Assembly (NCBI RefSeq): GCF_019967995.1
Contig: NZ_CP065377.1
Coordinates: forward strand, 2,108,001 to 2,172,000
DNA from: Faecalibacterium prausnitzii
GTDB taxonomy: Bacteria; Bacillota; Clostridia; Oscillospirales; Ruminococcaceae
Length of the DNA stretch: 64,000 nt
Direction: 5' to 3'
Shown: in pieces, positions 6,944 through 44,546 of the stretch
Position numbering within the stretch: the first letter of the stretch is position 1
Layout of the letters: every line of letters starts with the position of its first letter
Position numbers and translations under genes: made by a program
Notes under the pieces: model-generated
Databases searched by the model: none
The model's input: only the letters and a program-made list of their open reading frames with translations
What the model was told of the DNA's origin: nothing

Positions 6944-8605
6944 TCAGAACAGCCCTGTGATCTTGCCATCGGCATCGACGTCGATGTTGACGGCGGCGGG
7001 CTTCTTGGGCAGGCCGGGCATGGTCATGATGTTGCCGCAGATGACCACCACGAATCCGGCACCGGCAGCAAGGCGGACCTCGCGCACCTCCATCGTGAAG
7101 CCGGTGGGCGCAGCCAGGAGCTTGGCGTTATCGCTGAAGCTGTACTGGGTCTTGGCGATGCAGACGGGCAGGTTGCCATAGCCCAGCTCGGTCAGCTCGG
7201 CCAGCGTCTTGCTGGCGGCGGCGCTGAAGTTCACATCGTCCGCACGGTAGATTTTCTTGGCGATGGCCTTCACCTTGTCCTTGAGGGGCATATCCAGCGG
7301 GTAGACATACTGGATGGGGCGGTCTTCCAGGATCTCCAGCACCTTCTCGGCCAGTGCCTTGCCGCCCTCGCCGCCCTTGGCGAAGACCTCGCTCAGCACG
7401 CAGGGCACGCCCTGCTCAGCGCAAACCTGCTCCACATACGCCTGCTCTTCGGGGGTGTCGGTCGGGAACGCATTGATGGCGACCACCACCGGCAGGCCAA
7501 AACCGTTCTTCAGGTTGTCGATGTGGCGGACGAGGTTGGCCGCACCGGCCTTGACGGCTTCGAGGTTGGGCTGGTTCAGGTCAGCCTTGGCAACGCCGCC
7601 GTGGCTCTTGAGGGCGCGGACGGTCGCCACCAGCACACAGGCGCTGGGTGCGATGCCCGCATAGCGGCACTTGATGTCCAGGAACTTTTCTGCGCCCAGG
7701 TCGGCACCGAAACCGGCCTCGGTGATGACATAATCGGCCAGCGAGAGGCTGAGCTTGGTGGCCATGACGCTGTTGCAGCCGTGGGCGATGTTGGCAAAGG
7801 GGCCGCCGTGGATGATGGCGGGGTTGTTTTCCAGCGTCTGAACGAGGTTCGGGTCCAGCGCATCCTTCAGCAGGGCGGTCATGGCACCGGCGGCGCCAAT
7901 CTCGCCCGCCGTGACGGGCTTGCCGTCGTAGGTGTAGGCGCAGACGATCTTGGCCAGCCGCTCCTTCAGGTCGGAGATGCTGGTGGCCAGGCAGAAGATG
8001 GCCATGACCTCGCTGGCGACGGTGATATCAAAGCCGTCCTCACGCGGGGTGCCGTTGACCTTGCCGCCCAGGCCGTCCACGATGAAGCGGAGCTGGCGGT
8101 CGTTCATGTCCATGCAGCGCTTCCAGGTGATGCGGCGGGGGTCGATGTTCAGGGGGTTGCCCTGCTGGATGCTGTTGTCGATCATGGCGGCCAGCAGGTT
8201 GTTGGCCGCGCCGATGGCGTGGAGGTCGCCGGTGAAGTGGAGGTTGATGTCCTCCATCGGGACCACCTGTGCATAGCCGCCGCCGGCTGCGCCGCCCTTG
8301 ACGCCGAACACGGGGCCGAGCGAAGGCTCACGCAGGCAGAGCATGGTCTTTTTGCCCAGCGCGTTCATGGCGTCGGCCAGGCCCACGCTGGTGGTGGTCT
8401 TGCCCTCGCCCGCCGGGGTGGGGCTGATGGCCGTGACCAGGACCAACTTGCCCTGCTTGCCAGCCTTGTGGATGAGGCGGTGGTTGATCTTGGCCTTGTA
8501 GCGGCCGTAGGGGATCACATCCTCGTCGGCAAGGCCGAGCGAGGCAGCGATCTCGGCAATGGGCTTCATGCGGGCTTCCTGTGCGATCTCGATATCAGAC
8601 TTCAT
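6944..8605 (-). CDS. fhs: Formate--tetrahydrofolate ligase
   Basis: A 553-residue protein of normal family length. It makes 10-formyl-THF from formate, THF and ATP, feeding purine synthesis and one-carbon metabolism. Visible motifs are the ATP-binding loop [17 protein letters not shown] near residue 65, [20 protein letters not shown], and the [17 protein letters not shown] segment. The start has a GGAGG site 7 nt upstream. Expression is likely controlled by the ZTP riboswitch and terminator in its leader. No folD or glyA is adjacent. Confidence 0.97.
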
Positions 8606-42993: not shown

Positions 42994-43022
42994 TTGACGA
43001 GCGGGCAAAAAAACGCTACACT
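42994..43022 (+). promoter_or_regulatory. Promoter of the DUF1292 gene and possibly the RNA downstream
   Basis: TTGACG, 17 nt, TACACT, about 85 nt upstream of the ATG at 43108. No terminator is seen between that gene and the structured RNA at 43485. Confidence 0.7.
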
Positions 43023-43107
43023 ATAAGCACAGCAAGGGCCTGTGGGAGCACAGAAAGCCCCGGCTGCCCCAACTTTATTTTTCGTTTGTAACAGGAGAAC
43101 GTATCTT

Positions 43108-43422
43108 ATGGCAGAAGAGATCAAGAACCCGAACGCCGAAGAGGAATATCAGCCCGATCTGATGACCCTTGAGGACGAGGACGGCAACGAAGTCACCTTT
43201 GAGGTGATCGACGCGCTGGACCATAAGGGCGTGCATTATATGGCCGTCGTGGAATACGCCGAGGACGAGGAAGACGTGAACGAGGATGCTCAGCTCGTCA
43301 TCCTGAGCGTCGGCGAGGACAGCGAGGGCGAATATCTGGATGTCGTGGAAGACGACGAGACCCTGCTGGAAGTCAGCAAGCTGTTCGAGAAGCGGCTGAG
43401 CGACCAGTTCGAGATCGAGTAA
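43108..43422 (+). CDS. DUF1292 (UPF0473) protein
   Basis: A 104-residue, very acidic protein: LEDEDGNEVTFEVIDALDHK, GVHYMAVVEYAEDEEDV and VILSVGEDSEGEYLDVVEDD define the DUF1292 fold. It is a small cytoplasmic protein of unknown role, usually encoded near ruvX. The ATG at 43108 has a CAGGAG site upstream; the frame to 43042 is not supported. Confidence 0.93.
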   Translation: MAEEIKNPNAEEEYQPDLMTLEDEDGNEVTFEVIDALDHKGVHYMAVVEYAEDEEDVNEDAQLVILSVGEDSEGEYLDVVEDDETLLEVSKLFEKRLSDQFEIE

Positions 43423-43484
43423 GTTTTTCAGACGATTGACCCGTGCAAAACTTCCTGCCCGGCTCGATTTGTTGCGGTTTATAT

Positions 43485-43655
43485 GATCCTACTAATCATT
43501 CAACGGGAGCCCGGCGTTCGCCGGTGGATTGCAGACCTCCCCGCTGTGGGCTCGACCCCAGAGGTTCGATGAGGAAGCGTGAATCCGGAGACAGGGCACC
43601 CACCTGTCCGCAAGGGTAGGTTTGATTGCCGCAGACGACCGGGCGGGATCTTTTT
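43485..43655 (+). ncRNA. Complex structured noncoding RNA, candidate raiA-motif RNA
   Basis: About 170 nt without coding features but rich in self-complementarity. GATCC (43485) pairs with GGATC (43646) right before TTTTT. GAGCCC (43507) pairs with GGGCTC (43548) enclosing GGCG-TT-CGCC. GACCTC (43534) can pair with GAGGTT (43561). CCGG-GGATT (43521) can pair with AATCCGG (43582). ACCTGTCC-GCAA-GGGTAGGT (43602-43621) is an 8-bp stem with a GNRA tetraloop. Unpaired-looking conserved-type strings such as GATGAGGAAGCGTGAATCC join them. Length, complexity and Clostridial context recall the raiA motif, but that is recollection only. It is not 6S, SRP, tmRNA or RNase P by their signatures. A cobalamin-riboswitch-like resemblance around GAATCCGGAGACAGGGCACC is weak. 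Confidence 0.7.
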
Positions 43656-43665
43656 ATAGGGACTT

Positions 43666-43713
43666 CATCCACCGCTGTCCTCTGCCAGGAGGAACAGTGT
43701 GTGGATTTTTTTA
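43666..43713 (+). terminator. Terminator after the structured RNA
   Basis: ATCCAC-CGCTGT-CCTC pairs with GAGG-AACAG-TGTGTGGAT around TGCCA and is followed by TTTTTTTA. Together with the T5 at 43651 it gives the RNA two possible 3' ends. Confidence 0.85.
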
Positions 43714-43870
43714 TACCCTCTCAGTCTCGCTGCGCTCGCCAGCTTATCCCCTTCTGGCACAAATGTGCCACCTCCCCCGGCCGGGGGAGTCTTTCGAAAG
43801 GGAGAGCCCTTGGCAAGCCAGTTTTGGCTATTGGTTTTCGCCCTGCGGGCTCTTTTGCAGCAGGGCTTCG
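43714..43870. repeat. Hairpin repeat R13, rearranged copy
   Basis: Starts ACCCTCTCAGTC with CGCTGCGCTCG, then CTCCCCCGGCCGGGGGAG. The order of the pieces is scrambled and the interior GCCAGTTTTGGC and CCCTGCGGGC are partly those of the long copies. There is no clear right terminus before the next gene. Confidence 0.65.
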
Positions 43871-43895
43871 CGGATTTGTCAGCGTGTTTGAAAGG

Positions 43896-44546
43896 ATGTG
43901 CAATTGCGGCATGAAGTCTGAGCATCTGGTGGGGACGAACATCCCCCGATTCACCTACGACACCCCCACGGTACCGGAAAACGATTTTTATGCCCTGTGC
44001 GAGGGCAGCCGGCCCCTGTGCATGATCTTCCTGCCGGGGTTCGACCATCCCGTCAGCCGCGAGTACATCACCCGCTACCTCAAGACCCTGCCCGCCCTCA
44101 AGGGCGCACGGCTGGCCTGCGTGGTGCGGTCCAGCGCCAAGGCGGTGGCCACGGCCACCCGCGGGTCGGAGTTTCCCTTCCCGGTCATCTGCGACGGGCC
44201 GGGCGTGCTGTACGGCTATCTGGGCGTGGAGCAGACCCGCGGCCTGCTGAGCTGGAGCTTCGCGGCCCAGAAGATCTATAAGGCCGCCAAAGATGCCGGT
44301 TATCACTACGACAAGTCTGCCCCGCAGATCCTGCCGCTGACGCTGGTGGTGGGCCCTATGGGCAGGATCCTGTTCACCCATTCCGGCCGCAGCCAGACCG
44401 ACCTGCCCGAAGACTGCGCCGCCATCCACGAGGTCGTCCGGGCCGTGGAGGCAGCTACCGTTCAGGCCCGCACCGACGCGAACCCCCACTGCTCCGACGA
44501 GACCCTTACCCTGCCCGACCTGATGGGCTGGGATGACGGGACCTGA
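43896..44546 (+). CDS. Peroxiredoxin/AhpC-TSA-like protein lacking the catalytic cysteine
   Basis: About 216 residues with a thioredoxin-like layout: PRFTYDTPTV start, LCMIFLPGFDHPVSREYITR, LKGARLACVVRSSAKAVATA, then FPFPVICDGPGVLYGYLGVE and a late cis-Pro type LPLTLVVGPMGRI. In AhpC/PRX-like2 proteins the first segment has a C-P-x-C or T-x-x-C; here it reads DHPVS, so no peroxidatic Cys is present. Hence it is probably not a peroxidase. Start choice is uncertain: the ATG at 43896 lies right after AAAGG, and the ATG at 43911 is 15 nt from it. The gene follows the structured RNA and repeat R13. Confidence 0.75.
   Translation: MCNCGMKSEHLVGTNIPRFTYDTPTVPENDFYALCEGSRPLCMIFLPGFDHPVSREYITRYLKTLPALKGARLACVVRSSAKAVATATRGSEFPFPVICDGPGVLYGYLGVEQTRGLLSWSFAAQKIYKAAKDAGYHYDKSAPQILPLTLVVGPMGRILFTHSGRSQTDLPEDCAAIHEVVRAVEAATVQARTDANPHCSDETLTLPDLMGWDDGT

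Follow-up and report, generated by a model that had tools for sequence, protein, structure and literature searches.

A gene for a DUF1292 protein, an RNA matching the 6S family, an intrinsic terminator and a gene for a peroxiredoxin-like protein follow each other on the plus strand of the window, i.e., the whole stretch of 64,000 nt of Faecalibacterium DNA that was analysed (Table 1). The DUF1292 protein matches PF06949 with 55.1 bits (cut-off 24; E 1.5e-14), and is identical to the protein of a record of Faecalibacterium hattorii; among solved proteins no clear relative was found (best E 0.038). The product of the downstream gene matches AhpC-TSA_2 below threshold (25.4 bits vs a cut-off of 27, scored on a longer reading frame).

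Only three RNA families passed the Rfam cut-offs in the whole window: 6S RNA (RF00013), the ZTP riboswitch (RF01750; 8655-8745 (-), 56.7 bits) directly upstream of the gene for formate--tetrahydrofolate ligase (6944-8605 (-), NF010030), and skipping-rope RNA (RF02924; 6307-6407 (-), 52.2 bits), an orphan structured RNA family.

Table 1 Features of the DUF1292-6S locus (positions refer to the window)
Feature	Position	Strand	Remarks
Predicted promoter of the DUF1292-6S unit	42994..43022	+	-35 TTGACG 42994-42999, N17, -10 TACACT 43017-43022
DUF1292 protein gene, first cistron	43108..43422	+	PF06949; 104 aa, strongly acidic
Gap between stop codon and 6S RNA, 26 nt	43423..43448	+	no promoter found; unconserved across genus alignment
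6S RNA	43449..43653	+	RF00013 match and covariation; mature ends approximate
Closing stem	43453-43462 with 43639-43648	+	10 pairs, 8 double-changed; 94.0 % of cells paired
Probable pRNA template	43486..43493	+	best-conserved part of 5' central-bubble strand; near-invariant columns
Apical (terminal) stem-loop arm	43505..43601	+	helices 2-7 of the 46-pair structure
3'-side central-bubble hairpin	43602..43621	+	8 pairs, 6 double-changed
Intrinsic terminator behind 6S RNA	43667..43712	+	hairpin of -24.8 kcal/mol, then T7
Peroxiredoxin-like protein gene	43896-44543	+	sub-threshold AhpC-TSA_2

Family membership and structure of the RNA

6S RNA, a textbook regulator, acts as a decoy to which the RNA polymerase of bacteria binds. 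In the Rfam scan of the whole window, RF00013 was matched with 65.9 bits (E 8.6e-11; gathering cut-off 46.4 bits) over the full length of the model (positions 1-187 of 187), and this match is the sole one in its genome. Across the 61 genomes searched (own, genus, family and order), 54 have a 6S match at E <= 0.001, 46 of these above the Rfam cut-off. The feature is almost certainly the 6S RNA of a Faecalibacterium. With other members of the 6S/SsrS family (ssrS of E. coli, bsrA and bsrB of B. subtilis) it shares the full-length covariance match, the arrangement of closing stem, predicted central bubble, apical arm and 3'-bubble hairpin, and a conserved putative template, the CC of which would be copied into GG of the product RNA.

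A preliminary description had placed a structured RNA at 43485-43655, likened it to a large ribozyme or the raiA class and named the raiA, cobalamin, 6S and SRP models for comparison, of which 6S alone matched. The raiA motif, the cobalamin riboswitch and SRP RNA yielded no match in the window at the gathering cut-off and none at E <= 1 in 43200-43900, where 6S is accompanied by one sub-threshold match only; in view of these covariance-model searches the three were rejected. A different large RNA (raiA- or ROOL-like, or a ribozyme) would suit a compact structured RNA adjoining a small conserved gene; it is extremely improbable, since no such family appears around the feature even at E <= 1, 6S matches end to end and the covariation tracks the 6S layout.

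Covariation was assessed for a 46-pair structure in an alignment (A2) of 54 6S sequences, 52 of them distinct and identical rows counted once, which omits one partial match (L055) and includes two copies from one genome (L007 and L031). The pairs are formed in 88.7 % of cells vs 38.0-49.1 % with the partners slid, 33 of 46 show changes on both sides, and none of 500 shuffles reached any of the five measures; since the structure had been obtained by folding 30 of these sequences (A3), this count is not wholly independent, and kinship alone can lift related sequences above shuffles in such measures. RNAalifold of all 54 sequences gave the same layout with 35 pairs, 25 of which have double changes. 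That a structured RNA is present and that its homologues covary is borne out by these results.

The long closing stem is supported by covariation in most of its pairs (Table 1). Helices 2-7 of the apical arm, the stem of which is interrupted as the 6S family requires, are paired in 82.4-98.7 % of cells, with double changes in 19 of 28 pairs. The GNRA hairpin recognized in the preliminary description is real: its stem (43602-43609 with 43614-43621), capped by a GCAA loop (43610-43613), is paired in 87.0 % of cells of the 52 distinct sequences. Published 6S structures have a hairpin facing the 5' bulge (PMC8414754). Two additional helices covary, one that prolongs the closing stem inwards (43469-43477 with 43629-43638) and a 4-bp hairpin around the template (43484-43487 with 43495-43498), together comprising 13 pairs formed in 77.6 % of cells. 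The 5' strand lacks a long partner of the Rfam type; as these helices covary, the central bubble is not simply open.

The proposed 5' edge at 43485 proved to be about 36 nt late with respect to the start of the family match and to the closing stem. Likewise, the letters of an outer GATCC/GGATC helix (43485-43489 with 43646-43650) are in place; its covariation score (0.125) is no better than that of shuffles, which average 0.127 and equal or exceed it in 275 of 500 cases, and the helix was rejected. Its 3' strand is part of the closing stem, whereas the central bubble includes its 5' strand. The 205-nt 6S stretch folds at -82.2 kcal/mol (z -1.98; 6 of 200 shuffles as good), and the fold of the minus strand has a z of -0.22. 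For the 171 nt originally outlined, said to be paired more densely than a simple UTR, the fold reaches -64.5 kcal/mol with z -0.55 and 52 of 200 shuffles fold equally well; energy by itself is thus uninformative here, and the thermodynamic argument was dropped. Nor is the region, described as free of coding frames, devoid of open reading frames, since short predicted ORFs cross the feature (e.g., 43443-43619, 58 aa). Overall, the observation behind the preliminary description is partly confirmed and its interpretation partly supported.

In the template, A43486 and C43488 are found in 54 of 54 sequences, C43489 and C43492 in 53 of 54 and A43491 in 52 of 54. Known product RNAs (pRNAs) share a GG, either at positions 4/5 or at 5/6, and their start is flanked by a conserved adenine (PMC8414754). 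A pRNA starting opposite U43493 would read 5'-AGUAGGAU with GG at positions 5/6 in this putative register, and A43494, beside the predicted start, is an adenine in 36 of the 40 rows that have no gap there; the CC-containing stretch agrees with the rule as given in that source, the pRNA itself being a prediction. The score of 65.9 bits is moderate vs up to 119.2 bits in the phylum sample, as might be expected of a decayed or non-functional 6S copy. Decay is nevertheless very unlikely, given the single copy in the genome, the strongly conserved putative pRNA template and the compensatory changes.

Gene neighbourhood of 6S RNA

DUF1292 is the order-wide partner of 6S RNA: the gene is located directly upstream on the same strand in 53 of 54 6S-bearing genomes, the exception (G037) having DUF1292 on another contig. 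Between the end of the DUF1292 profile match and 6S lie 25-181 nt. Measured from the stop codon, the distances in 54 loci of the order are two-humped, with 45 loci in the range of 1-47 nt and the other 9 in that of 60-154 nt; within the genus 6S begins 11-47 nt past the stop codon in all 30 loci, and in the 15 close-linked loci of the order outside the genus it does so after 1-20 nt. Linkage was found in 9 of 30 loci at the class level (the 30 best-scoring loci, with 51 genomes having a match) and in 0 of 30 at the phylum level (the 30 best-scoring loci, with 100 genomes having a match), counts that include one locus (L060) incomplete upstream, which could not show the link. It is thus not an ancient link throughout the Clostridia.

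A converse scan of DUF1292 in named genomes, covering 22 loci, revealed 6S behind DUF1292 in 17, with two of the 17 matches falling under the Rfam cut-off; ten Faecalibacterium records in this set have the pair, and these overlap the main genome sample and are not independent of it. In one genome (G034, contig C3) the pair occurs twice, at 1076904-1077358 (L007) and 1079865-1080319 (L031); the two copies are 2.96 kb apart and have equal scores, indicating duplication of the unit or an assembly duplicate. In two Clostridia MAGs, RNase P RNA instead of 6S is found behind DUF1292, on the opposite strand (L130, 1872-2316 (-); L132, 1895-2283 (-)).

No literature joining 6S to DUF1292 was found, and an earlier report within the central 6S surveys is possible. 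6S RNA and yrzB appear in one paper, listed separately where it names them (PMC3871023). For lactic acid bacteria, 6S is described in a fixed gene neighbourhood as well, like the DUF1292-6S pair; their 6S differs in having promoters of its own and, as neighbours, rarA and a gene for a universal stress protein (PMC8414754).

On the 3' side, the T5 tract noted before is present at 43651-43655, and the second terminator proposed there corresponds to the hairpin listed in Table 1, which the terminator scanning tool did not list. A hairpin followed by T5 occurs within about 130 nt behind 6S in 27 of 30 genus loci, at least two of these terminators being doubtful (L053, -5.2; L051, -8.8). Directly past the terminator, a 29-nt motif (43716-43744) represents a dispersed repeat with 17 other copies in the genome (90-100 % identical over 28-29 of 29 nt).

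A tblastn search (E <= 1e-5) of about 1.5 kb behind 6S placed the peroxiredoxin-like gene there in 28 of the 30 loci of the genus. Outside the genus, none of 24 loci of the order has it in this range, one of them (L043) comprising only 211 nt downstream. Its constancy within the genus would accord with the suggestion that the RNA is a cis-acting leader of this gene; this role is very improbable, as a terminator separates the two, the gene is missing from the other loci of the order and 6S itself is order-wide, with DUF1292 as its partner. The suggested alternative of a trans-acting RNA fares better: the RNA is conserved, structured and probably trans-acting.

Promoter signals at 6S loci

Sigma-A-like sites were defined by at least 9 of 12 matching positions, a spacer of 16-18 nt and A and T at fixed places, and were sought with the start of the -10 box 6-40 nt before 6S. 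An own promoter of this type, which is usual and not defining for 6S RNA, was found at 1 of 50 close-linked loci (none of the 30 in the genus, none of the 15 elsewhere in the order and 1 of 5 in the class), 8 of 13 linked but spaced loci and 38 of 51 unlinked loci, L060 being left out as incomplete upstream. The difference between close and unlinked loci is pronounced (Fisher p 2e-15; 6e-8 without the genus) with genomes treated as independent. Compared with dinucleotide shuffles, p < 0.05 was obtained for 2 of 50 close loci, about the number due to chance; among spaced loci 5 of 13 reached this level, and among unlinked loci, here including L060, 14 of 52. One locus (L068) has 6S 47 nt from the stop codon and yet carries its own promoter. 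From these sequence comparisons, 6S of this genus is predicted to lack an own promoter, as is that of roughly every second family among the others sampled from the order.

An ordinary 6S RNA could still be transcribed from a promoter directly in front that is of a type missed by a TTGACA/TATAAT scan, i.e., weak, of the extended -10 type only or read by another sigma factor, since a sigma factor with a different consensus could serve the gap. The 6S RNA of C. difficile (RCd3), a fellow clostridial family member, is described as starting, at a mapped site, downstream of its own sigma-A promoter of consensus type (PMC3649979), differing from the predicted state in Faecalibacterium, and the spaced and unlinked loci analysed here carry such promoters. 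Against this possibility, which is rather unlikely, stand the genus gaps of 11-47 nt without conserved columns across the genus alignment, the absence of any site with at least 9 of 12 matches from the gap and the last 300 nt of DUF1292 in all 30 genus loci, and the conservation of a promoter-like site before DUF1292 in each of them.

This upstream site, TTGACG-N17-TACACT, was found with the pattern TTGAC-N18-TACACT in 29 of the 30 genus loci and has TAAACT with the same spacing in the remaining one (L023). Its -10 box TACACT agrees with TATAAT at only 4 of 6 positions, and the promoter scanning tool reported none in 43000-44000, a range that starts 6 nt inside the site at 42994. Conservation and position suggest promoter activity of this element.

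Proposed biogenesis and implications

Taken jointly, the data are explained best by a 6S RNA that lacks its own promoter and is processed out of the 3' part of the DUF1292 mRNA, a reading that is quite likely correct. A single promoter upstream of DUF1292 would drive one transcript of ~680 nt, comprising 6S in addition to the DUF1292 coding region and ending at the terminator hairpin, from the 3' end of which a nuclease would cut 6S free. Like other 6S RNAs, it would then mimic an open promoter and sequester the housekeeping RNA polymerase holoenzyme, and it would be released once the enzyme transcribes a short product RNA on the central bubble. For this genus, production of 6S from the DUF1292 mRNA only is probable. 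The wider proposal, namely that the sole 6S of Faecalibacterium and of several related families is an mRNA tail that lost its promoter and derives solely from the DUF1292 mRNA, is tentatively favoured.

Bacterial small RNAs derived from 3'-UTRs are released from the 3' ends of mRNAs, and the known ones are mostly base-pairing regulators; the 6S RNA would resemble them in its release and differ in its role as polymerase decoy. Transcription as one unit implies that 6S must be cut out or act while attached. Action in the attached state is not far-fetched, as 6S-1 of B. subtilis extended by mRNA of its neighbours aspS and yrvM is described to still bind the sigma-A holoenzyme (PMC11077062). That read-through product is a side form, whereas in Faecalibacterium 6S would come mainly or exclusively from transcripts entering it from DUF1292.

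6S being a textbook regulator, its identification is ordinary; the layout, with 6S behind DUF1292 and predicted to lack a promoter of its own, which sets it apart from other 6S/SsrS RNAs, seems to be the less ordinary part. If the proposal is true, the level of 6S would be set by the promoter of the DUF1292 mRNA and by RNA cleavage, linking DUF1292 to polymerase control, and uncut DUF1292 mRNA could serve as 6S in tethered form. In dominant gut bacteria, a global regulator of transcription would then have its amount governed by cleavage of an mRNA and not by an own promoter, and the conserved acidic DUF1292 protein would gain a testable link to the control of RNA polymerase.
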